From: Halorussus ruber
GTDB taxonomy: Archaea > Halobacteriota > Halobacteria > Halobacteriales > Haladaptataceae
Direction of reading: 5' to 3'
NCBI RefSeq assembly: GCF_004765785.1
Contig: NZ_ML219768.1
Coordinates: forward strand, 342,585-406,584
Length of the DNA stretch: 64,000 nucleotides
A program made the position numbers and the translations under genes. The notes beneath the pieces are model-generated. The model saw only the letters and a list, made by a program, of their open reading frames with translations, made no database searches and was not told the origin of the DNA. How positions within the stretch are numbered: the stretch's first letter is position 1; every line of letters begins with the position of its first letter. This document shows positions 5,096 to 61,065 of this stretch, in pieces.

Positions 5096-5659
5096 ATGGT
5101 CGATTTCGAGGTGGTCGAACTCCCCGAGACCGACCACGTCGAGGAGGGCGACACCGCGCCCGACTTCACCCGCCCGCTGGTCAACGACGAGTTCTGGGAG
5201 GACGTTGCCCTCTCGGAGTTGACCGAGGAGGGACCAGTCCTGCTGGTCTTCTACACGATGGACGGTGCCTTCCCCGCGACCTACATGTGGAACGAGATTC
5301 GGGACAGAAACTGGGGTAGCGAGGCGCAACGCGCCTCGGAAAAAGCGAGCGGTGAAACCGCGAGCAGCGACGGCCGCGACATCACCATCGTCGGCCTCTC
5401 CGTCTCGGACCCCTACGCCCACAAGCAACTCATCCACGAGCGCGGGATGGACTACCGACTGTTCAGCGACCCGCAGAACGGCGTCGCCGAGGAGTACGGC
5501 ATCGTCAACGACCTCGACGGGATGGCGGGCGTGAGCGAACCCCGGCCCGCCGTCTTCCTGCTGGACGAGGACCGAACCGTCGAGTACGCGTGGGTCGCCG
5601 AGGAGTGGCCCGATTTCCCCGACTACGAGGAAATCGAGGACGCCATCGCCGGGCGCTGA
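5096..5659 (+). CDS. redoxin-domain (AhpC/TSA-like) protein lacking the peroxidatic Cys
   Basis: Protein of 187 residues with a peroxiredoxin-like fold: 'GDTAPDFTRPLV' near the start, 'VLLVFYTMDGAFP' as the core strand and turn, and 'YGIVNDLDGMAG...PAVFLLDED' at the C-terminal side. No cysteine occurs where the peroxidatic Cys of the PxxxTxxC motif belongs; that region reads 'FPATYMWNEIR'. In fact I see no cysteine in the protein, so a classical peroxidase is doubtful and a binding or structural role is possible. A low-complexity segment, about residues 75-95 (bases 5321-5380), is a palindromic in-frame insertion listed separately. The start ATG 5096 follows the upstream stop by one base. Confidence 0.85.
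   Translation: MVDFEVVELPETDHVEEGDTAPDFTRPLVNDEFWEDVALSELTEEGPVLLVFYTMDGAFPATYMWNEIRDRNWGSEAQRASEKASGETASSDGRDITIVGLSVSDPYAHKQLIHERGMDYRLFSDPQNGVAEEYGIVNDLDGMAGVSEPRPAVFLLDEDRTVEYAWVAEEWPDFPDYEEIEDAIAGR
5321..5380 (+). repeat. in-frame palindromic insertion element, copy 1 (in redoxin gene)
   Basis: Two adjacent hairpins in the coding sequence: GAGGCGC-aac-GCGCCTC, then after 'GGAAAAAG' the sequence CGAGCGGTGA-AACCGCGAG. The same architecture occurs in glyS (60218-60275) with stem 1 changed from A:T to C:G on both sides. It encodes a Ser/Ala/Glu-rich surface-type peptide. Relatives as I remember them run directly from the 'RNWG'-like segment into the 'ITIVGLS'-like strand, so this is an insertion. 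Confidence 0.7.
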
Positions 5660-5707
5660 AGTTCGGGATTCGCCATCTCTTTTTTCGCCCAAAGCGAAAC
5701 GCGCCAC

Positions 5708-6298
5708 ATGAGTGGCGAGGACACAGACATCGAACGCGCCGCGACCGCGATTCGAGACGGAAATCTCGTCGTCTACCCGACAGAGACGGTGTACGGCCTC
5801 GGCGCGGACGCCCTGAACGAGGAGGCGGTCGAGCGCGTCTTCGAGGCCAAGGGCCGGTCGCGCGACAAGCCGGTCTCGCTGGCGGTGGCCGACGCCGACG
5901 CCGCGCTGGAGTACGTCCGGGCGACCGACCGCGAACAGCGGTTCATGCGCGAGTTCCTCCCCGGCCCGGTGACGGTCCTCTGCGAGAAGCGCGAGGCGGT
6001 CCCCGACGTTTTGACCGGCGGGCGAGAACGGGTCGGGGTTCGGGTCCCCGACCACCCGGTCGCGCTCGACCTCCTGCGCGAAGTCGCCCCGGTCACCGCC
6101 ACGAGTGCGAACGTGAGTGGACGAGAGAGCGCGACCCGCGTGGCCGACCTCGACCCGGAAATCCGAGAGGCCGCAGAAGTCGTCCTCGACGGCGGCGAGA
6201 CGGGTGGCACCGGAAGCACGGTCGTGAACGTCGAGACCGGCGACATCGTGCGCGAGGGGCCGAACGCCGACGAGGTGCGGGAGTGGTTACGGAAGTGA
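5708..6298 (+). CDS. L-threonylcarbamoyladenylate synthase (Sua5/YciO/YrdC family)
   Basis: Protein of 196 residues covering one YrdC/Sua5 domain. It makes threonylcarbamoyl-AMP from threonine, bicarbonate and ATP, the first step of t6A37 modification in ANN-decoding tRNAs. Visible family marks are 'VVYPTETVYGLGADALN' (residues 21-37), 'KGRSRDKPVSL' (about 48-58), 'PGPVTVL' (about 87-93) and 'ATSANVSG' (about 131-138). There is no C-terminal Sua5 extension, so it is of the short TsaC type. It starts 48 bases after the redoxin gene. A gene for the TsaC-linked modification enzyme TrmO lies at 15.7 kb. Confidence 0.93.
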   Translation: MSGEDTDIERAATAIRDGNLVVYPTETVYGLGADALNEEAVERVFEAKGRSRDKPVSLAVADADAALEYVRATDREQRFMREFLPGPVTVLCEKREAVPDVLTGGRERVGVRVPDHPVALDLLREVAPVTATSANVSGRESATRVADLDPEIREAAEVVLDGGETGGTGSTVVNVETGDIVREGPNADEVREWLRK

Positions 6299-6352
6299 GC
6301 GTCCGAGTTCGGGAGTACCCCGAAACCGACAGCAGGCGAGGCTTCGTAGGGA

Positions 6353-6377
6353 CTCCTTGTCCCGGCGTCACAAGGAG
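6353..6377. terminator. stem-loop after the Sua5-family gene
   Basis: CTCCTTGT (6353-6360) and ACAAGGAG (6370-6377) form a perfect 8-bp stem with a 9-base loop, 55 bases after the stop of the upstream gene. Possible terminator or RNA processing site; no U-run follows. Confidence 0.4.
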
Positions 6378-6439
6378 GGAGAAAGACCCGGGCGGGTTTC
6401 GGGAGTCGTGTCAGGCGGCACGTAACAAAGGAATGGGAG

Positions 6440-6452
6440 GTCTACCGTAGAC
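6440..6452. promoter_or_regulatory. 13-bp palindrome upstream of HalOD1 gene
   Basis: GTCTAC-c-GTAGAC is a perfect palindrome ending 13 bases before the ATG at 6466, close to the expected transcription start. It could be an operator for the HalOD1-protein gene. No match to a known regulator site is claimed. Confidence 0.35.
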
Positions 6453-6465
6453 GTGGAGACAGACA

Positions 6466-6783
6466 ATGGCGGTCGCAACGAGAGACGCGAACTCGGAGAT
6501 AGTGTATCGAACGGAGTACGACCGAGACCACGACGGGTCCATCAGTAGCGCCGTCGTCGAGGCGCTGGCGGCGGTCGAGAACGTCGAACCGGAGAATCTG
6601 GACGTTCGACTGTACGACAGCGTCGAGAGCGACGCGCTGGACGAGTTGTATCGGGCCACCGCGGAGCGCTCCGAACGCCTCCGGGTCGCCTTCACGCTCG
6701 ATTCCTACGAGGTGGTGCTGGAGGACGGCGGGCAGATCGTGGTCCGGACTCGGGGGGACGCCCGACGGCAAGTCCCGCGATAG
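6466..6783 (+). CDS. HalOD1 output domain protein
   Basis: Protein of 105 residues consisting of a single HalOD1 domain, the haloarchaeal output domain often found alone or after receiver domains in signalling proteins. Diagnostic segments are 'SISSAVVEALAAVENVEPENL' near residue 25, here split over the helix and following loop, and 'LRVAFTLDSYEVVLEDGG' towards the C-terminus. The stand-alone form is common; the binding partner is unknown. A 13-bp palindrome sits just upstream. It converges on the Cas4-like gene, whose stop codon lies 33 bases away. Confidence 0.85.
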   Translation: MAVATRDANSEIVYRTEYDRDHDGSISSAVVEALAAVENVEPENLDVRLYDSVESDALDELYRATAERSERLRVAFTLDSYEVVLEDGGQIVVRTRGDARRQVPR

Positions 6784-6815
6784 CGCCGACCGAGCCAGCG
6801 CCCCGGCTTCGGCGC

Positions 6816-7484
6816 TCAGAACCCCAACAGCGACTTCAGCGACCGCGTTTTCACGCCGCACTCCGTGCGGTACTCGCAGGGCTTGCACTTCGCGTCGTTG
6901 GTGAGTCTGGGCGGCGGGCCGTCGAGCGCCCGGACCGCTTCCATGGCGGTCCGGTAGGACGCCTTCCGGCGGGCGTGCAGGCGGAGTTCGCGGATTTCGC
7001 CGTGGGTCGGATACTCCACGAAGGCGCGCTCGACCGGCGTCTCGAACTCCCACGAGAGGGCTTTCGCGGCCGCGACGGCGCGGACCGATTGTGACTCCCA
7101 GACGCCCTCCTCGGGCGGGTCGCCGGTAAAGACCATCGCGGGCGTGGGCACGCCGAGGTCCAGCACCTTGTGGACGATGCCCCGGCAGTCCTTGCCCTCG
7201 GTCAGGCGCTCGCGCTCGCTCGGGTCCCGAATCGCGTCCCACTCGTCGGCGAACCTCGACCGCGCGCGGTCGAGGTTCGCCCGGAACTCGGCGGGACCCA
7301 CCGCCAGCGGGAGGTCGGCGAGGGCGTCCCGAGGAGTCGCCAGTAACTCCTCGTAGCGAAACGCCAGTTCCCGGCGCTCGGCCACCTCCTCGGGGACTTC
7401 GAAGTCGCCGTCTCGACGCCGATAGTACAACTTGCGCGGGCAGTACGCCGCGGTCGAGAGGTCGCTGAACGCTATCTTCGACAC
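6816..7484 (-). CDS. stand-alone Cas4-like (DUF83, Dna2/Cas4) protein
   Basis: Protein of 222 residues with the Cas4 Fe-S layout: a single Cys15 in 'LSTAAYCPRKLYY' and a C-terminal triad Cys200, Cys203, Cys209 in 'KCKPCEYRTEC', predicted to hold a 4Fe-4S cluster. Cas4 and Dna2-type proteins are PD-(D/E)xK exonucleases. Here the expected acidic-X-Lys pair is not obvious: the region after 'GDPPEEG' reads 'VWESQSVRAV', so nuclease activity is uncertain. No cas1, cas2 or repeat array is present in the window, so a repair role is more likely than CRISPR adaptation. A TATA-like 'gatataaac' (7508-7516) lies 24-32 bases upstream of the ATG, which supports a leaderless start. Confidence 0.8.
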   Translation of the reverse strand: MSKIAFSDLSTAAYCPRKLYYRRRDGDFEVPEEVAERRELAFRYEELLATPRDALADLPLAVGPAEFRANLDRARSRFADEWDAIRDPSERERLTEGKDCRGIVHKVLDLGVPTPAMVFTGDPPEEGVWESQSVRAVAAAKALSWEFETPVERAFVEYPTHGEIRELRLHARRKASYRTAMEAVRALDGPPPRLTNDAKCKPCEYRTECGVKTRSLKSLLGF

Positions 7485-7860
7485 GCGATTGGTTCGTCTC
7501 GTTCTGGGATATAAACCTAAGCAACCTCTGCAATCGGTAAAGCAATCAGAACAATTGTCTGCCGAACGCGCGGCCAGCGAGCGACCGAACGGAGTGAGAG
7601 AGCGAGCGCACCACTAATCAGCGGACGGCACCGCAAACCAGCGACCGCAGACGCTCGACTAAATCAGAAATACAGCACCAGCATCCGCGTGAGCGAAGCG
7701 AGCGCGGTTCGCCGCGAGCGAGGAGCGAAGCGACGAGCGAGCGGACCAAGGGAGGACCAAAGCGAACGGAGTGAGCGGCGGGACGACCGCCGTGTTTTTC
7801 ATGAAAGTTTTGCAAGGGAGAAATCGCGGCTCCGCCGCGATTTCGACCGCAGGAAAAGTT
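7485..7860. other. intergenic hairpin-rich region
   Basis: 376 bases without a supported gene. It contains the Cas4-like gene promoter (7508-7516), a GAGCG/AGCGA-rich hairpin region (7560-7750) and, at 7735-7751, a 17-base match to 44994-45010. It ends with the 3'-flanking element listed next. Apparent reading frames here are products of the repeated hairpins. Confidence 0.6.
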
Positions 7861-7863
7861 TCA
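7792..7863 (-). repeat. 3'-flanking structured element, copy A
   Basis: Read on the minus strand it begins at the TGA stop of the gene at 7861-8463. Conserved arms are AAACTTTTCC-x-GCGGTC and CTCCCTTGCAAAA, ending in AAAAACAC. The inner hairpin AAATCGCGGC-gga-GCCGCGATTT is specific to this copy. The outer arms TGAAACTTTT and AAAACTTTCA (complement-strand reading) nearly pair. Copy B lies at 45109-45188. Confidence 0.65.
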
Positions 7864-8463
7864 GAAGGAAACGTTCGTCTCCATCCCTTCGGTCGCGTCG
7901 TCCAGTCCGTCCTCTTGGACGCGCTCGGTCATTCGGTCGGAGAGTTCCCGGTCGCGGAGGACGTTCTCGAACTCGTCGCGGAATCGGTCGTTGACGGTCC
8001 GGCGCTCCTGTTGGGTCTCGACGACGCGGCGGTAGCGCCGGACGGTCGATTCGCTCACGTCGAGTTGTTCGGCGCACTCGACAGTCGTCGCGCCGTCGTC
8101 CAGCAGGTCACGGAGTTCGTCCATGTCGAACGGCGCGTCGGTGTCGCTATCTCGGATGAGGTGGAGGTCGATGCGGGCGCGCGAGACCGTCTTGCCGAGA
8201 GACGCGTCGCCGAGGTCGCGGGCGATTTCGGCGTCGGAGTCACCGGCGTAGAAGCCCCGGACCACGGTGACGAGTTCGTCGTCGGAGAGCGTCGTGCCGA
8301 AGTCGTACCGGTCTCGCATCCGAGCGACCACGTCTTCGAGATGCTCGTCTACCTCCGCCTCCGAACTCAGCGAACCGTGAGTCTCCTCTTGCTGTTCGGT
8401 GACGGTGGATTCGTCGGTGACATCCATGAAGATGTCACGGAGTTCCTCTGTCTTCTCGTCCAT
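7861..8463 (-). CDS. HTH-domain regulatory protein (haloarchaeal Cmi4-like)
   Basis: Protein of 200 residues. The middle contains a helix-turn-helix in 'LDDGATTVECAEQLDVSEST' (about residues 123-142), followed by a basic, helical C-terminal part. The N-terminal half holds a further region, 'DDELVTVVRGFYAGDSDAEI', that also looks like an HTH. I recognise the family as the one named conditioned medium-induced protein 4 in some haloarchaeal annotations; its targets are unknown. 'attataaaaatc' (8494-8505) is a good TATA box 31-41 bases before the ATG. The divergent bioYMN operon starts 117 bases away. The stop codon is embedded in a repeated 3' element. Confidence 0.75.
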   Translation of the reverse strand: MDEKTEELRDIFMDVTDESTVTEQQEETHGSLSSEAEVDEHLEDVVARMRDRYDFGTTLSDDELVTVVRGFYAGDSDAEIARDLGDASLGKTVSRARIDLHLIRDSDTDAPFDMDELRDLLDDGATTVECAEQLDVSESTVRRYRRVVETQQERRTVNDRFRDEFENVLRDRELSDRMTERVQEDGLDDATEGMETNVSF

Positions 8464-8536
8464 AGGCGATTGATGTTGGCGGGACGTGACGGCATTATAA
8501 AAATCTGTCGGAGGCGGAAGTCGAGGCGGCGGGCGT

Positions 8537-8566
8537 CGTCAACCGAAGCTATAATTCCGGTTGACG
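8537..8566. promoter_or_regulatory. BirA-type operator around the bioY TATA box
   Basis: CGTCAACCG (8537-8545) and CGGTTGACG (8558-8566) are a perfect 9-bp inverted repeat. The core GTCAACC-N14-GGTTGAC has the same half-site type and spacing as BirA sites of bacteria and archaea (GTAAACC-N14/16-GGTTTAC). The TATA box 'tataatt' (8550-8556) lies inside the spacer, 25-31 bases before the bioY ATG, so occupancy would block TBP. Regulation by a BirA-HTH protein is inferred. Confidence 0.7.
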
Positions 8567-8580
8567 GACCACGGGGGAGT

Positions 8581-9162
8581 ATGAGCACGGATACGGCGTC
8601 AGTCGAGTTAGTCGGCGAGGAGACCGCCGAGAACGTCGCCCGAGCGGCCCTGCTGGCCGCGCTGACCGGCGCGTTCGCCTACGTATCGTTCCCCAATCCC
8701 CTCTCGCCCGCGCCGGTGAGTTTGCAGGTGCTTGGCGTGTTTCTGGCCGGAATCCTCCTCGGGGCGGTCTGGGGCGGCGTCTCGATGGCGCTGTACCTCG
8801 TGACCGGCGCGGTCGGCGCGCCCGTCTTCGCTGGCGGGTCCGCTGGCGTCGGCGCGCTGTTGGGTCCGACCGGCGGCTACCTCTGGTCGTACCCCGTCGC
8901 GGCGTTCGCCATCGGCGCAATCGTCCACGGCGGCGTCCGCCTTCGGAACCGCGTCCCGCGCGGTATCCCGCGACTCGTCGGCGCGATGGCGGTCGGCACG
9001 GTCGTCATCTACGCCTTCGGCGTCGTCGGCATGTCGCTCGTCCTCGGGATGACGCTCCAGAAGGCGTTCGTCGCGGGCGCGGCGGCGTTCATCCCCGCCG
9101 AGGCGTTCAAGATGGCCGCCGCAATCGGCGTCGTCCGGAGCGACCAGATTACCGCCGAGTAG
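8581..9162 (+). CDS. bioY: biotin transporter BioY (ECF S component)
   Basis: Integral membrane protein of 193 residues with about six hydrophobic helices. The family signature around 'GVFLAGILLGAVWGGVSMAL' (about residues 54-73) is followed by 'YLVTGAVGAPVFAGG' and 'LLGPTGGYLWSYP', which form the biotin-binding core of BioY. As the S component it binds biotin and works with the ATPase and T component encoded next. The ATG at 8581 is chosen because of the upstream TATA box; a longer open frame upstream has no sensible protein. It is the first gene of a bioY-bioM-bioN operon under a BirA-type operator. Confidence 0.93.
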   Translation: MSTDTASVELVGEETAENVARAALLAALTGAFAYVSFPNPLSPAPVSLQVLGVFLAGILLGAVWGGVSMALYLVTGAVGAPVFAGGSAGVGALLGPTGGYLWSYPVAAFAIGAIVHGGVRLRNRVPRGIPRLVGAMAVGTVVIYAFGVVGMSLVLGMTLQKAFVAGAAAFIPAEAFKMAAAIGVVRSDQITAE

Positions 9163-9184
9163 CGAACCCAACGAAAACGATTCG

Positions 9185-9922
9185 ATGATAGAAACTCGTG
9201 AACTGGTCCACAGGTACGGCGACGAGGAGAGTCCGGCGGCAGTCGATGGCGTCACGCTCTCGATTCCCGACGGCGAGTTCGTCCTGCTGGCCGGCCCCAA
9301 CGGGTCGGGCAAGTCCACGCTCGTCCGGCACTTCAACGGCCTGCTTGAACCCGATTCGGGCGAGGTCCTCGTAGACGGCACTCCAGTCACCGACGACCTC
9401 GTGGCCGCCAGAACCCGCGTCGGCATGGTGTTCCAACAGCCGCGCGACGGCTTCGTCGCGGCCACGGTCGGCGCGGACGTCGCCTTCGGCCCGGAGAATC
9501 TGGGCCTCGCGCGCGAGGAGATCGACCGCCGGGTCGAGGAGGCCCTCGAAGCGGTCAACATGCGAGACCGCCGCGACGAGCGCATCGACGAACTCTCCGG
9601 CGGGGAGCGCGAGCGAGTGGCGATTGCGGGAGCCCTGGCGATGGACCCCGACCACCTCGTGCTGGACGAACCGTTCACCGGCCTCGACGCGCCGACCCGC
9701 GAGTCGGTGGTCGAACAACTCCGGAGCCTCAAGGAGTCGGGCACCGGCGTCGTCCTCGTGACCCACGACCTCCGGGACGCGTTCGCCCTCGCGGACCGAA
9801 TCGTCGCGCTCGCCGACGGGGACGTGGCTGTAGACGCCTCGCCCGAGGAGGCCCGCGACCGACTGCCCGAACTGGGAATCCGGGTCCCGCCGAAGAGAGA
9901 AACCCCCCGAGAGGAGCCGTGA
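9185..9922 (+). CDS. bioM: ECF transporter ATPase (BioM-type)
   Basis: ABC ATPase of 245 residues. Walker A GPNGSGKST at 37-45, Q-loop 'VFQQPRDGF' (82-90), signature LSGGE (137-141), Walker B 'HLVLDEP' (157-163) and the switch His in 'VLVTHDL' are all present, so the subunit should be active. The family is the CbiO/EcfA group that energises ECF vitamin transporters. It starts 22 bases after bioY and overlaps bioN by 4 bases (GTGA), so the three genes form one operon and biotin is the likely substrate. The symbol rests on this context. Confidence 0.92.
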   Translation: MIETRELVHRYGDEESPAAVDGVTLSIPDGEFVLLAGPNGSGKSTLVRHFNGLLEPDSGEVLVDGTPVTDDLVAARTRVGMVFQQPRDGFVAATVGADVAFGPENLGLAREEIDRRVEEALEAVNMRDRRDERIDELSGGERERVAIAGALAMDPDHLVLDEPFTGLDAPTRESVVEQLRSLKESGTGVVLVTHDLRDAFALADRIVALADGDVAVDASPEEARDRLPELGIRVPPKRETPREEP

Positions 9923-10626
9923 CCCTCAGCTACCGACCGGGCGACTCGCTGGCCCACCGACTCGACCCCCGGACCAAACTCGCCTTTCAGGTGGCGTTCG
10001 CGGTGGCGGCGTTCGCCCACACCACGCCGAAGGGCCTGCTCGCGCTGAGTGGCGTCGCCGGGGTCGTCCTCGCCTCCTCGGACGTGTCGGCCCGCGAGGC
10101 GCTGGTCGAGTACCGATTCGTCTTCCCCTTCCTGCTGGCCGGACCCCTGCTCTCGGCCGCCGCGCTCGGCCCGCCGTGGATTCGCTGGCAGGCGGGGTTC
10201 GACAGTTTGCTCGCGAGCTACCGGGTCGTCCTCGTCCTGTTCGTGAGCGCGGCGTACCTCCGGACGACGCCCGTCAGGGACTCGCGGGCCGCGATTCAGC
10301 ACCTCGTGCCGGGGAAGGCGGGGCAACTCCTCGGAACGGGTGTCGGCTTCGTCTTCCGGTTCCTGCCGGTCTTGCAGGCCGATTTGCGTCGGATTCGGGA
10401 CGCCTCCTCGGCGCGGTTGGGCGACCAGCGAGGACTGATAGACAGGATGAAACTCGTCTCGATTTCGGGGCTTTCGCGGGCGCTCTCGCGGGCCGACAGG
10501 TTCGCGCTGGCGCTCCGCGCCCGGTGTTTCTCGTGGAACCCGACGCTCCCGCCGCTCTCGTTCTCGCGGGCCGACGTTCCCGTGATAGTTGGGAGTGTCG
10601 GGCTGTTGCTCTGGGCGATTATCTAA
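9919..10626 (+). CDS. bioN: ECF transporter T component (BioN-type)
   Basis: Membrane protein of 235 residues, CbiQ/EcfT family. It begins 'MTLSYRPGDSLAHRLDPRTK', the typical family N-terminus, with four to five hydrophobic helices between about residues 23 and 140. A cytoplasmic coupling helix region with Ala-Arg-Gly-like motifs 'ALRARC' (about 195-200) couples to the ATPase. The GTG start overlaps the last codons of the ATPase gene by 4 bases, indicating translational coupling. A terminal hydrophobic helix ends the protein. It converges on the halocin-like gene after 31 bases. Confidence 0.9.
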   Translation: MTLSYRPGDSLAHRLDPRTKLAFQVAFAVAAFAHTTPKGLLALSGVAGVVLASSDVSAREALVEYRFVFPFLLAGPLLSAAALGPPWIRWQAGFDSLLASYRVVLVLFVSAAYLRTTPVRDSRAAIQHLVPGKAGQLLGTGVGFVFRFLPVLQADLRRIRDASSARLGDQRGLIDRMKLVSISGLSRALSRADRFALALRARCFSWNPTLPPLSFSRADVPVIVGSVGLLLWAII

Positions 10627-10657
10627 CTCCGTCGGCGGTACGACTCTCCGTGAGAGG

Positions 10658-11470
10658 TCAACAGGCGCAGACCTTCTCGCACACGTCTTGCGGATTACTG
10701 ATTCCGAAGGTCGTTACGACGAGACAGAGGACCCCGAATCCCGCAGCGCAGGCGAGCGGACCGACGCCGGTCTGGGAGGTAACGACCGAACAGTAGGCGG
10801 CCGTCTGCAGGCTGCACGACAGTGAGTTCAGTATCGTCACCATGTTCTTGCAGTCTCCACAGCCGATAGTGTCGGGGAAGTCCGAACAGTAACTCGCCTG
10901 CGTGGTGACCTCACCGTCTTCGAACCACCCAGAGAGGTCGTGGGTCTTCTTCGTAACCGTCGTTCCACCAACGTCAGTCGTCGTAGCCTGAGTCGAGACG
11001 TTCTCAAGGCCGTTCGCGGTGCTCGTCGAAACGACGCCGCCCCGACCGAACTCGGTGATGGAGACGGGACGGTCCCGGTCGTCGAGTTCGGTGACAGTCG
11101 CCTTGGCGACGGAATCGCCACCTAGCGGAATCGAGATGTTCGCACCACCGGCCGCGACGCTGTCGTCTACGAACGAAACGAGCTCGAATTTGCCACCGCT
11201 GGCCGGGAAGACTCTGAAAGCGTTGACTTCGGTCGCGTCGAACGAGATACCCTCGCGCTGGAGCGCCGTGGCGAACAGTTCGAACTCGTCGGTGGAGCGC
11301 GCGTCCTCGATTACTTTGGAGCGCTTTCCGCCACGGATTCGCTTTATTTTCAGTTTCCCGTCCGCCGAAGCAGGGTTCGATGCGGATCCGAAAGTCACGC
11401 CAGCGGCACCGATACCTTTCAGACATTTCCGGCGACTAATCGAACGCCCATCTTGGCCATCTTCTGACAT
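10658..11470 (-). CDS. halocin C8-like antimicrobial peptide precursor
   Basis: Secreted precursor of 270 residues. A Tat-type signal lies at the N-terminus (twin Arg13-Arg14 in 'SRRKCLKGIG', then an Ala-rich segment ending near residue 36). A middle domain of about 150 residues follows, then a Cys-rich C-terminal peptide of about 80 residues with ten cysteines (195, 204, 207, 219, 227, 241, 249, 264, 268, 270). This matches halocin C8, whose 283-residue Tat-exported ProC8 is cut into an N-terminal immunity protein and a 76-residue peptide with ten cysteines. Here 'TIGCGDCKNM' near the peptide start resembles the 'TGCSACK' of C8. No dedicated exporter or protease is adjacent. A TATA box lies 25-33 bases upstream, in DNA much more AT-rich than the surroundings. 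Confidence 0.85.
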   Translation of the reverse strand: MSEDGQDGRSISRRKCLKGIGAAGVTFGSASNPASADGKLKIKRIRGGKRSKVIEDARSTDEFELFATALQREGISFDATEVNAFRVFPASGGKFELVSFVDDSVAAGGANISIPLGGDSVAKATVTELDDRDRPVSITEFGRGGVVSTSTANGLENVSTQATTTDVGGTTVTKKTHDLSGWFEDGEVTTQASYCSDFPDTIGCGDCKNMVTILNSLSCSLQTAAYCSVVTSQTGVGPLACAAGFGVLCLVVTTFGISNPQDVCEKVCAC

Positions 11471-11494
11471 GTAGTAGAGAGGTCACGACCACGA

Positions 11495-11503
11495 ATTTAA
11501 AAA
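11495..11503 (-). promoter_or_regulatory. TATA box of the halocin-like gene
   Basis: 'TTTTTAAAT' on the minus strand lies 25-33 bases before the ATG at 11470, implying a leaderless transcript. The flanking 11490-11600 is strongly AT-rich, unlike the neighbouring genes. Confidence 0.6.
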
Positions 11504-11664
11504 TCTTTATACTTGTATTTTTTACTTTTTTAACAAATATTATAATTTATATAGGAAGGGTATCTATCATAAGTAGATTCGACTACCTGAAATCACGGAA
11601 TCGAATATCGGTGAGTGGGCGGTTCAACCGTCAACCGGACCGAGACGAGTCCGTATTGGTTCGA

Positions 11665-11850
11665 CTATCTGAACAACAGCGTGATAGCCACCAGCGAGAC
11701 CAACCCCGAAATCAACGCAACCAGAAGACGGGAGTCCGCTGGCGCTACGAGCCAAGAGAAGACGGTCATCACGACCGTGATACCGATAATCAGTCGCAGT
11801 TCGGACCGTCCGATTGCGGCGAGACTGTTTCGGTCCACGCTCGGTATCAT
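11665..11850 (-). CDS. small two-helix membrane protein
   Basis: Protein of 61 residues with two hydrophobic helices (about 18-34 and 42-60) joined by a short 'APADSR' loop. It is a candidate transcript from its own promoter: 'TTTTATTTT' lies about 24-32 bases upstream of the ATG. It is on the same strand as the halocin-like precursor, 194 bases upstream of it, with no other gene between. Its size and topology would suit an accessory or immunity protein, but nothing in the sequence proves a link. No family is recognised. Confidence 0.5.
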   Translation of the reverse strand: MIPSVDRNSLAAIGRSELRLIIGITVVMTVFSWLVAPADSRLLVALISGLVSLVAITLLFR

Positions 11851-11943
11851 GTCATCCTACGTCATGGTCGAAAATAAAAGGCGGGGTTCGACGAACGACA
11901 GTCATGACCTGCGCGGTTGAGCATGAGCTATAAACCATAAACA

Positions 11944-11964
11944 CCCGGCCCGTTTTCGGCCGGG
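11944..11964. terminator. GC stem-loop before the Hdr-like gene
   Basis: CCCGGCC (11944-11950), 7-base loop, GGCCGGG (11958-11964). It lies 53 bases before the ATG at 12017, and so just upstream of or within the promoter. It may separate transcription from the region upstream. Confidence 0.4.
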
Positions 11965-12016
11965 GGAGCGGCCTGAGTCGGTAAAACTTAAGCGAATCCT
12001 GTTCCCCGTGTAAAAC

Positions 12017-14137: not shown

Positions 14138-14373
14138 ACGACGAGTTGGCGGCTACTCGACCATCTTCGATTGGCCAAGCCGCTATCTCGCGGGCTTCGA
14201 GTATTGTTCTTCGGAAAAATACTATCTCCGGAGTATCACGGGAAAAGCGAGTAGAGCATATCGAGGCGAACAGTTCTTCGACACCTTCGAACCGCAGAAT
14301 ACGCGAGAGAATCACCTCTTGGTTCGTACTAACTCGTCTCACGGACGGCATCACTATCCGGTACCGCAGAGGT

Positions 14374-14380
14374 ATTAATA
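14374..14380 (+). promoter_or_regulatory. TATA box upstream of MFS-trmO operon
   Basis: 'attaata' within 'ggtattaatatct' lies 42-48 bases before the ATG at 14422, giving a short leader. The preceding 230 bases (14138-14370) hold no gene I can support. Confidence 0.4.
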
Positions 14381-14421
14381 TCTAGGCGCAAAATAATAAT
14401 TGCACACTACCTACAATACTC

Positions 14422-16088: not shown

Positions 16089-16351
16089 TCGTCGGCCAAA
16101 TCCCGTTTCCAGACCGACTCGTAGAGAAACACTCGTCGGGCTTCGCCCGTGAAAGCGGCCGAAAAGCGGCGACGGGTATCCGGAGTGATAGAGACACCCA
16201 TCCAGAAGTGCGCTCGCGTGGATTTCAAAGCATGGCACGCGATGAAGTCGGCACGCGAGCGCAACTCAGGCTACGTTCTGGAACTTGTTAGGTCTGACGC
16301 CTACCGGTTCGCAGAAAAACTCGACCGGGTAGCGAGTCGAGTTGTGTCAGT

Positions 16352-24795: not shown

Positions 24796-25152
24796 ATGCG
24801 CAAGCGAACGCTACTCTTCGTCGCAACCGTTGCAACGCTCGCACTGTTCGCCGGTAGTGTCACTGCCTCCGACGTTGGTACGGAGTGCAGGGACACCCGG
24901 GAGTGCTGGAGCCCGTCAGCCCTCGACTCGCCACAGCCAGCCGACGTTAGTACGGAGTGCAGAGACACCCGTGAGTGCTGGAGCCCGTCAACCCTCGACT
25001 CGCCACAGCCAGCCGACGTTAGTACGGAATGCAGAGACACCCGTGAGTGCTGGAGCCCGTCAACCCTCGACTCGCCACAGCCAGCCGACGTTAGTACGGA
25101 GTGCAGAGACACCCGTGAGTGCTGGAGCCCGTCAGCTCTCGACTCGGCATAG
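24796..25152 (+). CDS. secreted tandem-repeat protein, 4 x 24 residues with Cys pairs
   Basis: Protein of 118 residues. A Sec signal peptide ('MRKRTLLFVATVATLALFAG', cleavage near SVTA at about 24) is followed only by repeats. Each unit of 24 residues runs 'DVSTECRDTRECWSPS', then T/A-LDS and, except in the last unit, a PQPA linker. Every unit has two Cys five residues apart, so eight in all, suited to one disulfide ring per unit. The four 72-bp units differ by only a few bases. The gene stops at a TAG in unit 4. Other frames and the complementary strand are open across the array only because 72 is a multiple of 3. The signal peptide, promoter and Cys pattern favour this frame. Function unknown; a precursor of repeated small peptides is one possibility. 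Confidence 0.75.
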   Translation: MRKRTLLFVATVATLALFAGSVTASDVGTECRDTRECWSPSALDSPQPADVSTECRDTRECWSPSTLDSPQPADVSTECRDTRECWSPSTLDSPQPADVSTECRDTRECWSPSALDSA

Positions 25153-25158
25153 GTCTCC
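24871..25158 (+). repeat. 72-bp tandem repeat, four units
   Basis: Units start at 24871, 24943, 25015 and 25087, each beginning GACGTT(A/G)GTACGGA. Units 2 and 3 differ at a single silent base. Unit 1 differs from unit 2 at four bases (two silent). Unit 4 diverges at its 3' end, where the TAG stop arises. Confidence 0.95.
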
Positions 25159-25230
25159 GACGTTAGAACAGAGTGCGTGACGGACGAGGAGAAATACTGG
25201 GAGACCGACAGCCTCGACGGGCAGGTTGAG
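25159..25230 (+). pseudogene. decayed fifth repeat unit beyond the stop codon
   Basis: In the same frame, after the TAG at 25150-25152, comes 'DVRTECVTDEEKYWETDSLD', aligned to the unit 'DVSTECRDTRECWSPSTLDS' (shared D-V, T-E-C, W, S/T, L-D). The second Cys is replaced by Tyr. A short 'QLPSRVR' duplication follows (about 25231-25272). It suggests that the protein was once longer. Confidence 0.55.
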
Positions 25231-44950: not shown

Positions 44951-45057
44951 GGTCGCGGTACGCACCAGCAGTTCTACCGCGAGCGAACGAAGTGAGCGAG
45001 CGGACCAAGGAATCCCTCGAAGAAGCGCCGGAGGCGCTTCTGAGGGGGTGACGCCGT

Positions 45058-45111
45058 GTTGTCGGGAGCGGAGCGACCGACTGCTCGGAAGACGCGGTTT
45101 GTCTTCCGGTG
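45058..45111 (+). repeat. intergenic repeat family R1, copy 1
   Basis: 54 bases, 51 of them identical to 57332-57385. Starts GTTGTCGGGAGCGGAGCGAC and contains the hairpin GGAAGAC-gcggttt-GTCTTCC. In the other copy the stem is GGCAGAC/GTCTGCC, a compensated change. Confidence 0.85.
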
Positions 45112-51647: not shown

Positions 51648-51725
51648 ACGCGCCGATACGGATTTCTTTTTCTCGGGCGCGCTAACCATATACGAATCGC
51701 GTCTACGGCCAGTAGCGGAGCCGTA

Positions 51726-51742
51726 AACCGGATTGGCCGGTT
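51726..51742. promoter_or_regulatory. hairpin between dppA-like and dppB-like genes
   Basis: AACCGG-attgg-CCGGTT in the 213-base gap. A second A/T-rich promoter-like 'aaatttatc' follows at 51779-51787. Likely reduces read-through or stabilises the binding-protein mRNA, giving more binding protein than permease. Confidence 0.45.
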
Positions 51743-51860
51743 AGTATCCGAAAGCGCAAGACATAATGAGAGGACCCACAAATTTATCACCCATGTGCGC
51801 GGTCCAGTTTGGGTACGTACAATTCGACGGGAGTAGCCGCAGTCGCGGCGGTGGTTCGCC

Positions 51861-52877: not shown

Positions 52878-52878
52878 C

Positions 52879-54273: not shown

Positions 54274-55351
54274 TGGCACAGAAAGAGACCTCCGCGGTCC
54301 GCAGCGAGGAGGAACCCCTCCTCTCCGTGGACAACCTCCAGACGGCCTTCTTCACCGACAAGGAGGTCATCCGCGCGGTCGACGGCGTGAACTTCGACAT
54401 CCACCGAGGCGAGACGGTCGGTATCGTCGGCGAGTCCGGGTCCGGCAAGAGCGTGACCGCCCGGTCCATCATGGGACTCGTCGATTCGCCCGGTCGCGTC
54501 CTCAGCGGGAGTAGCATCACCTTCCGCGGCGAGGAGCTGACCGAAAAGAGCGAGAAGCAGTACCGGAGCCTCCGCGGGAGCGACATCGCAATGGTGTTCC
54601 AGGACCCGCTGACCTCGCTCAACCCGGTGTACACGGTGGGCAACCAAATCAAGGAGGCGCTCCGGCTCCACCAAGACTTGCGGGGCGCGGCCGCCACCGA
54701 GGAGGCCATCAACCTGCTCGAAGCGGTCGGGATTCCGGACGCCTCGCGGCGCGTCAAGGAGTACCCCCACGAGTTCTCCGGCGGGATGCGCCAGCGCGCG
54801 GTCATCGCCATGGCGCTGGCCTGCGACCCGGAGCTACTCATCTGCGACGAGCCGACCACGGCGCTCGACGTGACGATACAGGCTCAGATTCTGGAGCTGC
54901 TTCAAGACTTGCAGGAGGAGCGAGACCTCGCCATCATGTTCATCACCCACGACATGGGCGTCATCGCGGAGATTTCCGACCGCGTGAACGTGATGTACGC
55001 GGGCGAAATCGTCGAGAGCGCGCCGGTCGAAGAGCTGTTCGAGAACCCGCGCCACCCCTACACGCAGGGTCTCCTCCAGTCGATTCCGGGCAATCAGCCC
55101 GACGCCGACCGGCTCTCGACCATCGAGGGCGACGTGCCGACGCCGAACGAACCCGCGGGCTACTGCCGGTTCGAGCCGCGGTGTCCGAAGGCGTTCGAGG
55201 ACTGCACGCGAGTCCACCCGGCGTCGGTCGAGGTCAACGACGAGGCCGACGACCACACCGCGGCGTGCCTCCTCTACCCCGAGGACGCGTCGCAGGCTGA
55301 GGCCGTCGAGTTACACGAGCAGTTAGAGAGCGAGCGAGAGGTGAGCGAACG

Positions 55352-55355
<4 letters not shown>
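54273..55355 (+). CDS. peptide ABC transporter ATPase (DppD type)
   Basis: Protein of 360 residues. Walker A '[11 protein letters not shown]' (about 54-64), signature '[19 protein letters not shown]' (about 168-186), Walker B '[13 protein letters not shown]' (about 188-200) and 'FITHDMGV' (about 225-232). The C-terminal oligo_HPY extension with its Cys cluster region ('[14 protein letters not shown]', about 295-308) is present, as in DppD/OppD. It overlaps the permease gene by one base (TGATG) and the second ATPase gene by 4 bases. Confidence 0.94.
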
Positions 55356-56683
<1,328 letters not shown>

Positions 56684-57133
56684 ATGTCTCAGACCACGAC
56701 TTCGCGGCGCGCGCGCCAAGCCCTCGACGCCGTGATGTACGGCCTCGCTGTCGCCGCAATCGTGTTCGTCGTCGGCACAGTCATCGGACTCGTCCTCGGC
56801 GGCGGCCTCGTGACCGCGAAGTTCGTGATGTTCTTCGTCGGCATCCTCATGTTCGGCTACGCCACCTTCCAACTCCGACCGGACCCGCCGTGGGACACCA
56901 AGGAGACCGACGACGGCAAGGTGAAGGTGACCAAGAACGAACCCGACGGCTCTGTCGTCGGCGGACGCGACGAGACGAAGTTTCAGGCGACCGTCCAGCG
57001 GATTCCGCCGCTCTCGCAGTACTCGCTCCCGCCCGACGACCGCCTCTCGGTCGGCGCGAAGCTGTTCGTCGCCAGTCTGGCGACGCTCGCGTGGTCGTTC
57101 GTGATGGAGACGGTCTTCGGCGTCGTGGCGTGA
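56684..57133 (+). CDS. hypothetical membrane protein at the end of the Dpp operon
   Basis: Protein of 149 residues. Two adjacent helices at about 18-62 ('YGLAVAAIVFVVGTVIGLVL', then 'FVMFFVGILMFGYATFQL'), a soluble charged segment (about 67-122) and a last helix at the C-terminus (about 126-148). The ATG immediately follows the stop of the ATPase gene, so it belongs to the same operon. I recognise it as a conserved haloarchaeal membrane protein of no known role; a link to peptide uptake is only positional. Confidence 0.8.
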   Translation: MSQTTTSRRARQALDAVMYGLAVAAIVFVVGTVIGLVLGGGLVTAKFVMFFVGILMFGYATFQLRPDPPWDTKETDDGKVKVTKNEPDGSVVGGRDETKFQATVQRIPPLSQYSLPPDDRLSVGAKLFVASLATLAWSFVMETVFGVVA

Positions 57134-57331
57134 GAGAGCCTGAGACAACTCTTCGTCTTCCAAACCAACCCAATCATTAGTTAAACGTGTATTTCTATAC
57201 CCTAAACAAATCTAAAATTGGTCGTGGGTTTTGCGGTCGGCGCGCGCTGGCGTCTTGCCGAACGGAGAGGCAAGGCTCGTGGGAGTTTGCCTCCCACGGC
57301 GCGAGTTCATCTCGCGCCATCGTCGCGCGAG

Positions 57332-57385
57332 GTTGTCGGGAGCGTAGCGACCGACTGCTCGGCAGACGCGGTTTGTCTGCCGGTG
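57332..57385 (+). repeat. intergenic repeat family R1, copy 2
   Basis: Starts GTTGTCGGGAGCGTAGCGAC; 51 of 54 bases match 45058-45111. Two of the three differences are on opposite sides of the stem (GGCAGAC/GTCTGCC against GGAAGAC/GTCTTCC), so pairing is kept. Confidence 0.85.
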
Positions 57386-57465
57386 GACGAGCGAGCGGAG
57401 TCTTGCTGAGCGTAGCGAAGCAACGGCTCGGAAGACGAGCGAAGCGATGTCTTCCGGTGCGAGCG

Positions 57466-57499
57466 AGGAGGTTGGGGAGGTATGAGGTCCGCGGTTGCG
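57466..57499 (+). repeat. intergenic repeat family R2, copy 2
   Basis: Reads AGGAGGTTGGGGAGGTATGA and continues GGTCCGCGGTTGCG; matches 28327-28360 (other strand) at about 30 of 34 bases. Confidence 0.65.
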
Positions 57500-57677
57500 A
57501 TTCTCATAGGCTTCGGCAATAGCTAGCTTCTCCGCTGCTTTCCACCGTTAAGTAGCGTCCCGTTCGCCGACTTTCTCGACAGGAACCGACTGGTCTGAAA
57601 ATCCGTTCTTCTCTCGCTTCCCCTTCGTTGGTCTTCAAACAACAGTTTTTACCCGCAGCAAGTCGTCAGACGGACAC

Positions 57678-58265
57678 ATGCCAAAGACTGGGGACGGCGA
57701 CGACAAACCCGACTACGCCGAGCAGATCTCCGCGAGCGCGGACGTTCACAAGGGCGCGTGGCAACGCACCCTCGACGACATGGAGTCGATGGCCGAGGAG
57801 ATGCGCGAGGAAGGGTGGGACGTCGTGACCGTCGCCGCGGGTCACACCGCACCGACCAACCCCGATTCGGGCGAGACCGACCGCTGGGGATTCGTCCACG
57901 TCATTCCCGACAACAAGGCCGAGCCGTTCTCCGAAGCGGTCGAGACCGGCAAGTTCCCCGAGTACCGGGTGTTCCGCAACGAGATGCAGGGGCGCATCTT
58001 CATGCTCACGCAACTGCTGGACCCCGAGACGGGGACTGCCATCCTCCTCGCGGGCAACTTCGAGACGCGCCACGCGCCGGGGCTGGTCAAGACCGCGCTG
58101 AAAGAGGATATGATGTACACCCACGTCCAGAAGTTGGACCAGACCCATCTGGGGTCGTTCCGCCACGACGACGTGGAGAAGTTCTTCCCCGACCCGCACA
58201 AGTACGCGGGGTACGACGTGCCTTTCGAGGGCGTGCTGGACGAGGAAGACGAGGATTCGGAGTAA
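57678..58265 (+). CDS. DUF7529 family protein
   Basis: Soluble acidic protein of 195 residues. Begins with a helical region ('AWQRTLDDMESMAEEMREEG', about 27-46), then 'WDVVTVAAGHTAPTNPDSGE' and 'FVHVIPDNKAEPF', a stretch 'EYRVFRNEMQGRIFMLTQLL' and 'ILLAGNFETRHAPGLVKTAL'. I recognise the haloarchaeal DUF7529 family; function unknown. No membrane segment. Monocistronic, after the hairpin cluster. Confidence 0.85.
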   Translation: MPKTGDGDDKPDYAEQISASADVHKGAWQRTLDDMESMAEEMREEGWDVVTVAAGHTAPTNPDSGETDRWGFVHVIPDNKAEPFSEAVETGKFPEYRVFRNEMQGRIFMLTQLLDPETGTAILLAGNFETRHAPGLVKTALKEDMMYTHVQKLDQTHLGSFRHDDVEKFFPDPHKYAGYDVPFEGVLDEEDEDSE

Positions 58266-58420
58266 CCGGTTTCTATCTGCTTTTTGGGCAGGCGGTAGTC
58301 GAGTTCTCACTTTTGCTCGCTCTCGAACGGGGTCGAACCCCGCAAAACTGAGCCTCGAAACGACCAGCGCGAATGTGCGGTTCGTAGACTACAAGACGCC
58401 CCAACCCGTAACGCGGCAAC

Positions 58421-59269
58421 ATGAAAGTCGGCGAAGCCATGACGCCCCGCTCGGAGGTCGTTACCGTGGAGCTTCCGGGCACCCGCGACGACGTGCTAGA
58501 GTACCTACAGGAACGCTCGTTCTCGTCCGTCCCCGTGGTCAAGAACGAGGAGGGGAACGAGAAGTTCCGAGGTCTCGTCTCCCGAGATAACCTCATCGAG
58601 AACCCCGACGAGGACCAGCTTGCGATGCTGATGCGCGACGTCCCGACCACCACGCAGGACACCACCATCGAGGAGGCCGCGGCGCTGATGGTCTCGGAGG
58701 GTGCGCGCCGCGTGCCGGTCGTTGACGGCGAGTTGGAAGGGATAATCACCGTGACCGACGTGGTGCGGGCCATCGCCGACGGCGACGCTGACGGCGACGA
58801 GAAGGTCGGCGACATCGCCTCGCGCGACGTGAACACCACCTACGTCGAGGTGCCCCTGACGGTCGCCGAGCGCGAACTCTACTACGCCAACCTACCCTAC
58901 GCGGTCGTCCTCGGCGAGGACGGCGAGATGGACGGCGTGCTGACCGAAGTGGACATCATCGAGGTCGCTCGCGTCGTGGAGGGCGAAGACGACACCGGCG
59001 ACTCCATCGCCGACGAGGACGACGACTGGAAGTGGGAGTCCATCAAGGCGGTCGGCAAGCGCTACCTGCCGACGCGGAACGTCGAGATTCCCGCCGCGCC
59101 GGTCGAGGAGTTCATGACCGACGACGTGGTGACCGTCTCGGGCGAGAAGACCGCCAAGGAGGTCGCCCAGATGATGCTCCGCAACGACGTCGAGCAGATT
59201 CCGCTGGTGAACGGCGACCGGCTCACGGGCATCGTCCGCGACGTGAACCTGCTGGAGGCGCTACGATGA
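58421..59269 (+). CDS. protein with four CBS domains
   Basis: Protein of 282 residues built of CBS motifs: 'MKVGEAMTPRSEVVTVELPG' starts the first; others begin near residues 65 ('MLMRDVPTTTQDTTIEEAAA'), 130 ('KVGDIASRDVNTTYVEVPLT') and 222 ('VEEFMTDDVVTVSGEKTAKE'). Pairs of CBS modules bind adenosine nucleotides or SAM and act as sensors. No catalytic domain is attached. It overlaps glyS by 4 bases (ATGA), so the two are translationally coupled. A regulatory link to glycyl-tRNA synthetase is possible but unproven. Confidence 0.92.
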   Translation: MKVGEAMTPRSEVVTVELPGTRDDVLEYLQERSFSSVPVVKNEEGNEKFRGLVSRDNLIENPDEDQLAMLMRDVPTTTQDTTIEEAAALMVSEGARRVPVVDGELEGIITVTDVVRAIADGDADGDEKVGDIASRDVNTTYVEVPLTVAERELYYANLPYAVVLGEDGEMDGVLTEVDIIEVARVVEGEDDTGDSIADEDDDWKWESIKAVGKRYLPTRNVEIPAAPVEEFMTDDVVTVSGEKTAKEVAQMMLRNDVEQIPLVNGDRLTGIVRDVNLLEALR

Positions 59270-61065
59270 GTAGCTCCGACCTCGTGGAACTGGCCAAGCG
59301 CCGGGGCTACTTCTTCCAGTCGGCGGGTGCCTACGGCGGCGTCTCTGGCTTCTACACCTACGGTCCGCAGGGCGCGACGCTGAAGGACAACATCGAGGAC
59401 TCGTGGCGCGACCGGTTCCAGCGCCGCGAGGGCCACCGCGAAATCGACGCCCCGACCGTGATGCCCGAACCCGTCTTCGAGGCCTCGGGCCACCTCGACA
59501 CCTTCGACGACATGCTGGTCGAGTGCCCCGAGTGCGGCGCGAGCCACCGCGCGGATCACCTCGTGGAAGACAACACCGACATCGAGGAGGCCGAGAGCAT
59601 CTCGATTCCGGACATCGAAGACCTCATCGCGGACCACGACCTGCAGTGTCCCAGTTGCGGTGCCGCGTTGGGCGGCGAACCGGTCGAGGAGTTCAACCTG
59701 ATGTTCGAGACGAACATCGGACCGGGTAGCTCCTCGCCGGGCTATCTGCGTCCCGAGACCGCGCAGGGCATCTTCGTGGAGTTCCCGCAACTCGCCGAGT
59801 ACGCGCGCAACCAGCTACCCTTCGGCATCACGCAAATCGGCAAGGCCTACCGGAACGAGATTTCTCCTCGGAAGTCCATCGTCCGGGTTCGGGAGTTCAC
59901 GCAGGCCGAACTGGAGCACTTCATCGACCCGACCGAGGACGAACCCGACATCGACCGGGTGGCCGACGTGGAGCTTCCGCTCTACCCCGCCGAGAAGCAG
60001 GAAGAGGAGGACGGCACCGAGTACGTCCACAAGACGGTTCAGGAAGCGGTTGACGAGGGGCTGGTCCACGAGTGGGTCGCCTACTATCTGGGCGTCGGCA
60101 AGCAGTGGTACGAGTCCATCGGCGTGGACATGGACCGGTTCCGGTTCCGTCAGCACCTCTCGGGCGAACTCGCTCACTACGCCGCGGACTGCTGGGACGC
60201 CGAGGCCGAGGTTGGCGCGGCGCGGAGCGCCGCGGAAGATTCGAGCGGTGACGAACCGCGAGACGGCGGCGACTGGATAGAGATTACGGGCTACGCCTAC
60301 CGGAGCGACTACGACCTGAGCAAACACGACGAGTACTCCGACGACGACTTCACCGTCTTCAAGCAGTACGACGAGCCGAAGGTCGTCGAGCGCGCCACCG
60401 TGGACCCCGACATGAGCTACCTCGGTCCGGAGTTCGGCGGCGCGGCGGGCGACATCGCCGACGCGCTCGAAGAACTGGCCGAGCGCGACCGGGCCGCCTT
60501 CGAGGACGACGAGATTACGGTCGAGGTTGACGGCGAGGAGTACACGCTCCCCGCCGAGAAGACCGGCTTCAGCGTCGAGGAGCAGAAGGAGACGGGCGAA
60601 CACGTCATGCCCCACGTCGTGGAACCCTCCATCGGTATCGACCGAGTCATCTACACCGTCCTCGACCACGCCTACGAGACCGACGAAGTCGAGGACGAGA
60701 CGCGGAGCTATCTCGCGCTCGAACCCGGCGTCGCGCCGACTTTCGTCGGCGTCTTCCCGCTGGTCAGCAAGGACGGGATGGACGACCGCGCCCGCGAAAT
60801 CGCGGACGACCTCCGCGCCGAGGGCCTCGACGTGACCTACGACGACTCGGGGAGCATCGGCCGACGCTACCGTCGCCAGGACGAGGTCGGGACGCCGTTC
60901 TGCGTCACCGTAGACGACGAGACGGCCGAGACGGTCACACTCCGCGAGCGCGACTCGACCGAACAGGTCCGGGTCCCCATCGACGACCTGCCGGAGGTAC
61001 TCGCCGACCTCCGCGAGGGCGAAGTCACCTTCGCGGAACTGGACGCGCCCAAAGCCGAACAGTAA
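59266..61065 (+). CDS. glyS: glycyl-tRNA synthetase
   Basis: Class IIa synthetase of 599 residues, archaeal/eukaryotic dimeric type. Marks: 'LAKRRGYFFQSAGAYGGVSG' at the start (about 7-26), zinc-ribbon-like 'CPECGASH' and 'CPSCGAAL' (about 87-133), motif 2 'YRNEISPRKSIVRVREF' (about 195-211), motif 3 'VIEPSIGIDRVIY' type ('VVEPSIGIDRVIYTVLDHAY', about 450-469) and the anticodon-binding C-terminal domain. About residues 318-336 (bases 60218-60275) is a palindromic in-frame insertion; other haloarchaeal enzymes as I recall them pass straight from 'CWDAEAEVG'-like to 'DWIEITG'-like sequence. Confidence 0.95.
   Translation: MSSSDLVELAKRRGYFFQSAGAYGGVSGFYTYGPQGATLKDNIEDSWRDRFQRREGHREIDAPTVMPEPVFEASGHLDTFDDMLVECPECGASHRADHLVEDNTDIEEAESISIPDIEDLIADHDLQCPSCGAALGGEPVEEFNLMFETNIGPGSSSPGYLRPETAQGIFVEFPQLAEYARNQLPFGITQIGKAYRNEISPRKSIVRVREFTQAELEHFIDPTEDEPDIDRVADVELPLYPAEKQEEEDGTEYVHKTVQEAVDEGLVHEWVAYYLGVGKQWYESIGVDMDRFRFRQHLSGELAHYAADCWDAEAEVGAARSAAEDSSGDEPRDGGDWIEITGYAYRSDYDLSKHDEYSDDDFTVFKQYDEPKVVERATVDPDMSYLGPEFGGAAGDIADALEELAERDRAAFEDDEITVEVDGEEYTLPAEKTGFSVEEQKETGEHVMPHVVEPSIGIDRVIYTVLDHAYETDEVEDETRSYLALEPGVAPTFVGVFPLVSKDGMDDRAREIADDLRAEGLDVTYDDSGSIGRRYRRQDEVGTPFCVTVDDETAETVTLRERDSTEQVRVPIDDLPEVLADLREGEVTFAELDAPKAEQ
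60218..60275 (+). repeat. in-frame palindromic insertion element, copy 2 (in glyS)
   Basis: GCGGCGC-gga-GCGCCGC, then GGAAGATT, then CGAGCGGTGACG-AACCGCGAG. Same order of parts as 5321-5380 in the redoxin gene. Encodes an Ala/Ser/Asp/Glu-rich peptide likely exposed on the surface. Confidence 0.7.

Follow-up and report, generated by a model that had tools for sequence, protein, structure and literature searches.

Two in-frame copies of a two-hairpin element

The 64,000-nucleotide (nt) stretch of the Halorussus ruber genome analysed here (contig NZ_ML219768.1, positions 342,585 to 406,584; hereafter the window) carries two copies of one 51-nt two-hairpin element, each lying within a protein-coding gene on the forward strand. 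The first host is an open reading frame (ORF) for an AhpC/TSA-type redoxin at 5096..5659 (Pfam PF00578, 1.8e-19), for which an alternative GTG start is possible at 5087, and the second is the glyS ORF at 59266..61065, whose start was read from the sequence and whose product matches glycyl-tRNA synthetase (GlyRS; PDB 4kr2, 2.7e-119). Comparison with orthologues lacking the insert set the bounds of copy 1 at 5317-5367 and of copy 2 at 60213-60263; each is 51 nt or 17 codons long, and both keep the reading frame. An earlier reading of the DNA from its letters (hereafter the sequence-only reading) had taken segments of these two genes for copies of a single palindromic element, inserted in frame and differing in stem 1 by a compensatory A:T to C:G change; the copies, the frame and the paired difference all proved real, while the "about 20" residues that each was said to add come to 17. 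Copy 1 adds a loop of the SEAQRASEKASGETAS type, with a predicted peptide that spans SEAQRASEK in the redoxin-like protein, and copy 2 (GAARSAAEDSSGDEPRD) is predicted to yield a peptide spanning GAARSAAEDSSGDEPR in GlyRS, at a place where the human enzyme (4kr2) has a 17-residue gap between DCWDAE and WIEI. Separately, at 5260-5290 the redoxin-like protein reads AFPATYM where its relative 2cx3 has FSPVCT, and is thus without the cysteine of that motif, which we take to be the peroxidatic one.

The hairpins were identified from the sequence and from fold predictions. In copy 1, hairpin 1 (5320..5338) reads CGAGGCGC-AAC-GCGCCTCG and hairpin 2 (5345..5365) reads GC-GA-GCGGT-GAA-ACCGC-GA-GC, with a GNA triloop and GA facing GA; the corresponding parts of copy 2 are CGCGGCGC-GGA-GCGCCGCG (60216..60234) and TC-GA-GCGGT-GACGA-ACCGC-GA-GA (60241..60263), the outer two pairs of the latter being open in the DNA fold and closed in the RNA fold. 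A covariance model that had both window copies among its 8 seeds scored them at 68.3 bits (5318-5365) and 59.3 bits (60214-60263), the next best match in the window reaching 20.9 bits. Likewise, a joint pattern, CGCGGAARANNCGAGCGGTGA, composed after both copies had been seen, had two matches in the window when up to 3 mismatches were allowed, and at least two matches arose in 0 of 100 shuffles.

Across copies the consensus is N-GCG-AGGCGC-NNN-GCGCCT-CG, followed after about 2-9 nt by N-CGAG-CGGY-GNA-RCCG-CGAG-N', giving an element of about 42-57 nt (42-54 nt for the inserts in compared genes). Hairpin 1 comprises 8 bp with a variable triloop, while hairpin 2 has a G...A loop, GA facing GA beneath it, and then a pair that varies in identity yet remains paired (n=101: 71 GC, 20 UA, 3 AU, 2 CG, 1 GU, 1 UG and 3 unpaired). 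In an alignment of 102 copies fitted to the structure of the model, which favours that structure, pairing is kept in 99.5% of cells, and both sides have changed in 9 of the 15 pairs; these values were reached by none of 500 shuffles, and sliding the partner by 1-3 columns left pairing at only 21-52%. A MAFFT alignment of 8 copies gave the same pairing picture. A hairpin-2 loop with G as its first and A as its last base occurs in 34 of 36 copies classed as non-coding and in 39 of 48 genic ones. The element is predicted to fold stably as RNA as well as DNA; in DNA, unusual stability is a property of GNA triloops and of C-GA-G facing pairs. Variant loops at four loci (L073, L221, L223 and L072) hold an extra (GA)AC-GNA-GT(GA)-like module, which gives the impression that palindromes lengthen through modules added at the tip.

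Copies across haloarchaeal genomes and empty sites among relatives

Pattern search of the whole H. ruber genome gave 4 exact copies and none for the reversed control. A second pattern, GCGAGCGGTGAAACCGCGAG with up to 3 mismatches, occurred at 15 places versus 1 for its reversed control; 7 of the 15 have no hairpin 1 and seem to be chance matches or other palindromes. The covariance model, R1, built from 8 copies, gave 58 matches in the 4.3 Mb at an expect value (E) ≤ 10 and 24 at E ≤ 0.001, and 29 of its matches were read in context. Both hairpins are present in about 20 of the 24, three (L039, L042 and L043) are truncated, and one (L040) was taken as another palindrome. The copies lie in intergenic DNA, in a tRNA-Arg intron and in 13 named, unrelated genes, which by Pfam and NCBIfam encode the AhpC/TSA redoxin, GlyRS, fructose-bisphosphatase, a MoeA fusion, MetRS, a DapE-type M20 hydrolase, the C-terminal tail of ribosomal protein uS3, a SAM methyltransferase, a GNAT protein, an ArsA/GET3 ATPase, an Eco57I-type methylase (two tandem copies), a Trm5/TYW2 enzyme, and a helicase nearest IGHMBP2 that scores below that model's cut-off.

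Empty sites were sought at 14 of these places among relatives drawn from the matches listed; 10 were aligned, and L025, L033, L034 and L043 were left out. At glyS, each of the 17 relatives fetched, of which 14 belong to the genus and 3 to the family, is short of exactly 51 nt, and the insert is likewise absent from metG in 14/14, the ArsA-like gene in 5/5, the dapE-like gene in 7/7, fructose-bisphosphatase in 7/7, the Trm5-like gene in 5/5, the uS3 tail in 3/3 (a variable tail) and the tRNA intron in 1/1. Of 16 congeneric orthologues of the redoxin gene, 4 carry the copy, each at the same place, 10 are empty, and in 2 it is partly (half) deleted; for moeA, an intact or decayed copy was found in 4 of 13 relatives. 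On a glyS tree, support values not being taken into account, the redoxin site is filled in genome G004 and empty in its sister G015, indicating that clean loss, regain or exchange happens. Some copies (L114, L130 and L132) have decayed after insertion. By eye, no target duplication of 2 nt or more was seen at the empty sites of glyS, metG, and the ArsA-like and dapE-like genes. The two checks proposed by the sequence-only reading, a genome-wide covariance scan and a comparison of orthologues, both came out in its favour: the genome holds many further copies with compensatory changes, and close relatives are without the segment at glyS, metG and six other sites, so that it is not common to all haloarchaeal orthologues. 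It had also called the element "mobile or recombination-spread"; what the comparison shows is presence and absence at clean sites, and spread by recombination would go beyond that.

The element is spread over the haloarchaeal order and is not special to this genome. At E ≤ 0.001, 33 of 40 genomes, H. ruber included, have between 1 and 57 matches each, counts that may be lower bounds as no more than 150 candidates per genome were scored (31 in the survey of the phylum). In that survey, at E ≤ 1e-4, 29 of the 33 genomes shown as belonging to the order match, versus 0 of 163 other genomes of the phylum under strict filters; 147 of these 163 were not listed singly and were counted outside the order since the list runs by kinship. 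An exact pattern search of a collection of named genomes returned 62 stretches, 61 of them with haloarchaeal titles (the genera include Halorussus, Halorubrum, Haloarcula, Haloferax, Natrinema and Halococcus) and one from "uncultured archaeon A07HN63", which is unplaced in taxonomy. In TrpA, one loop has been reused: an intact or decayed copy lies in 5 of 30 loci sampled across the order, where 57 genomes have the gene, and copies in this loop occur in nine genera, from Halorussus to Haloferax. At the trpA locus L387, this loop, which receives the element in other genera, holds a long Gly/Asp/Ser-rich insert. Five plasmid records, all from Halorussus, carry the element. The viral contigs gave 0 exact two-hairpin matches and the phages 0 matches; a looser hairpin-2 pattern found 16 viral contigs, with 15 R1 matches of up to 32.7 bits, which were taken as chance or other palindromes. 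In a search for a carrier among copies with equal scores, pairs from G017, G002 and G019 were seen to share about 110-380 nt, and two stretches of G001 with copies are identical over all 4,048 bases fetched.

Reading frame in genes and nesting outside them

We classed the 102 copies by a codon score over about 150 nt on each side. By this score 48 copies are flanked on each side by coding sequence in one frame, 16 have coding sequence on one side, 2 lie between sides in different frames, and 36 are non-coding, including L029, which scored as non-coding despite its position in a dapE-like gene. Among the 48 two-sided copies, which pool by upstream residues to 37 sites, 46 are read in sense phase 0, phases 1 and 2 account for one copy each, and no copy is antisense. 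A second sample of 62 named stretches, mostly from other genera, sharing 10 stretches with the first and contributing 30 new copies among its 35 two-sided ones, gave phase 0 sense for all 35 two-sided and all 18 one-sided copies, with 8 further copies non-coding and 1 at an edge. In 35 non-coding copies the three antisense frames are open in 32, 35 and 35 cases, and sense phase 0 in only 24. As the antisense frames are thus open in most non-coding copies, stops alone do not explain the single sense frame. The mean net charge of the peptide is -1.1 for phase 0 in 46 genic copies and from +2.1 (phase 0) to +3.9 for the open frames of non-coding copies, and the charge of the encoded peptide may account for the occurrence in a single frame.

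In phase 0, hairpin 1 reads (S/G)EA..AS. Hairpin 2, which follows linkers of varied length, is read as ASGETAS-like in 25 of 46 copies, RAAEPR-like in 9, SSGDEPR-like in 8 and otherwise in 4. An explanation at the level of the peptide was rejected, since the bases of hairpin 2 are kept while being read in three ways; conservation lies in the bases and not in the peptide. Genic copies are predicted to add a short polar, slightly acidic loop to unrelated proteins, and two plasmid records annotate intact coding sequences running across a copy.

Outside protein genes, the tRNA-Arg(TCT) intron measures 80 nt with the element versus 31 nt in G002; this copy is antisense to the tRNA, whereas those in protein genes are sense, and G016 has a copy inside the same tRNA gene. 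Several intergenic copies sit in the loops of other palindromes. Two intergenic copies of the congener G003 (L324 and L325) are 47-nt inserts in the loop of an interspersed palindromic repeat, D19, which was found with its loop free of the element at 45058..45111 and again at 57332..57385 of the window, both on the forward strand; a GAGCG repeat at D19 is ambiguous as a target duplication. For the 36 non-coding copies, complementarity of the flanks was higher than in 60 of 60 permutations, and after pooling of the flanks to 16 groups the mean energy was reached in 7 of 400.

Several observations accompany these sites. D19 itself (54 nt, its two copies 94% alike) contains two palindromes, and in the first of them a GNA-like loop occurs together with GA facing GA. 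In G017, loci L314-L318 carry, near 2900-3200, five copies of a composite repeat about 170-285 nt long that is built of several hairpins in series, one pair of which matches the element. The copies L051, L169, L177, L191 and L198 share a similar non-coding site (about CCCGGAACGG ... GCGCCGCACGCC) across several Halorussus genomes; a tRNA lies within the fetched stretch in three, and the site itself is without an Rfam match. Elsewhere in the window, at 24869-25228, a 72-nt unit forms a tandem array.

Candidate mechanism and known systems

The reading that we favour, with a probability of roughly 0.8, is that a family of small two-hairpin DNA elements disperses as DNA and is best seen as selfish DNA tolerated as a protein linker. 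The copies are dispersed over unrelated sites, vary in presence between near relatives, and occur in genes in one frame. On this reading the element would spread through haloarchaeal genomes as DNA, over unrelated sites, by an insertion that is probably not frame-directed, because two non-genic inserts measure 49 and 47 nt; out-of-frame and antisense copies would be lost to purifying selection, and the spreading machinery would recognise the pair of hairpins, with their G...A loops and facing GA steps, probably in single-stranded DNA.

Several results weigh against this account. No transposition was observed, and no enzyme could be linked to the element: the 7 Y1_Tnp and 23 TnpB loci of the H. 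ruber genome, taken with about 1.5 kb of flanks, held no full element; their best match, of 32.8 bits (E 2.3e-5), lies next to a remnant of TnpB, and all others score about 21 bits or less. The frame has exceptions, in that 13 of the 16 one-sided copies are in phase 0 sense, two are in another sense phase and one lies beside a gene of the opposite strand, and the copies L052 and L199 lie between coding stretches in different frames. Filling of the same TrpA loop in several families means that some copies may be ancient and inherited. As for nesting, D19 free of the element was found in the window and in none of 333 fetched loci, the pooled count of strongly nested non-coding copies was not significant (0.0975), and loop nesting of genic copies was not clear (5 of 60 permutations; 0.085 after pooling).

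Among the alternatives, we consider it unlikely, though the least so of four, that the element derives from an IS200/IS605-type transposon of which only the termini are left (a PATE, or a repetitive extragenic palindrome (REP) moved by a Y1 transposase), its hairpins 1 and 2 being the end hairpins of the left and right side, fused. Two hairpins in about 50 nt and the lack of a readable target duplication recall the 52-bp terminal-only PATEs of Haloquadratum, as described in excerpts of PMC3119063, and the host genome has the Y1_Tnp and TnpB matches named above, one near the weak match of 32.8 bits. The absence of the full element from all 30 such loci argues against this origin, as do the lack of conservation of the REP tag GTAG beside the element and the lack of a well-conserved 4-6 nt motif adjoining the ends (upstream, the information per position does not exceed 0.65 bits in 35 non-coding copies and 0.96 in 48 genic ones). 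Chance convergence of GC-rich palindromes is scarcely credible: in GC-rich haloarchaeal DNA GAGCGNAGCGA-type palindromes are plentiful at the loci, but none of the 163 other genomes of the phylum matched at E ≤ 1e-4, all pattern stretches save the unplaced one bear haloarchaeal titles, and the clean empty sites already refute it.

Two further explanations turn on function. That the inserts are selected protein loops, such as salt-adaptation linkers, with the DNA palindrome as a by-product, would suit the single frame, the polar, slightly acidic peptides and the core enzymes that serve as hosts, yet hairpin 2 keeps its bases while the peptides differ, non-coding copies retain the G...A loops and belong to the paired set, and sister species are without the insert at the same site; we judge this improbable. 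Slightly less probable still is an RNA element, with an mRNA or tRNA-intron structure of regulatory role, copied for its function. Stable RNA folds and a location in genes and a tRNA intron accord with such a role, while an Rfam search over 18 loci gave tRNA only, the copy in the tRNA intron is antisense and those in protein genes sense, and presence varies in near relatives.

We tentatively suggest one possible route, in which a hairpin-borne selfish element enters DNA at folded hairpin tips, by way of single-stranded DNA and some enzyme or replication step, so that palindromes might grow by nesting and the order might gain ready-made protein loops. If true, this would put it in a class of its own among mobile elements and would give Archaea a general route by which proteins change. 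Coding palindromes behaving like those of Rickettsia are now found across an order of free-living archaea, with as many as 57 matches in one genome. Some haloarchaea are genetically tractable, which opens both the movement of the element and its tolerance by proteins to experimental test.

We know of no account of how Rickettsia palindromic elements are mobilised. According to excerpts of a review (PMC10969869), these are palindromic, potentially hairpin-forming elements of about 150 bp that lie in frame in unrelated protein genes and are fused to the product. The haloarchaeal element shares the palindromic make-up with potential hairpins, the in-frame position in unrelated genes and the absence from orthologues, as the sequence-only reading had anticipated in likening the two, and differs in having two hairpins in about 42-57 nt, in occurring across an order of free-living archaea, and in its tRNA intron site. 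It works like a Rickettsia palindromic element; as size and host differ, and the comparison was one of descriptions, we do not file it as one.

GTAG/CGTC REPs also occur within ORFs, as in Opitutus terrae, where more than half of ORF inserts are dimers or groups coding for 20-30 residues, and excerpts of PMC3733652 describe small hairpins with alternative complementary stem bases. Those REPs are named there from bacteria, whereas for the haloarchaeal element no link to a transposase was found, and its hairpin foot in 35 non-coding copies shows no conserved GTAG/CGTC tag (position -1: G 0.43, T 0.31; position 0: A 0.46, T 0.40). The arrangement of REP and RAYT, a Y1 transposase gene flanked by the repeat, was not found at the 7 Y1_Tnp loci of the H. 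ruber genome. The terminal inverted repeats and target-site duplication that mark a miniature inverted-repeat transposable element of a DDE transposon were not found, the duplication being sought by eye at the four empty sites named above. Haloquadratum SMR-A and PATEs, as far as excerpts of PMC3119063 go, resemble the element in being haloarchaeal, without transposase and without target duplication, and SMR-A further in inserting into palindromes of other elements, here seen for several non-coding copies and not clear for genic ones, and in its enigmatic mobilisation. SMR-A differs in its length of about 110 bp and its terminal inverted repeats, and in-frame coding inserts are not among the traits those excerpts describe. 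The coding palindromes of nematomorph mitochondria (excerpts of PMC6649704) are likewise inverted repeats within protein genes, but are perfect repeats of up to 284 bp in animal mitochondria. Searches of the open-licence PMC literature listed no haloarchaeal coding palindrome, in agreement with the sequence-only reading, which had not extended to the order-wide spread, the single sense frame, the tRNA intron or the loops of intergenic palindromes. Compared with these systems, what is new here is a design in which two hairpins combine G...A loops with tandem G.A, the nesting in the loops of other palindromes, and the site in a tRNA intron.

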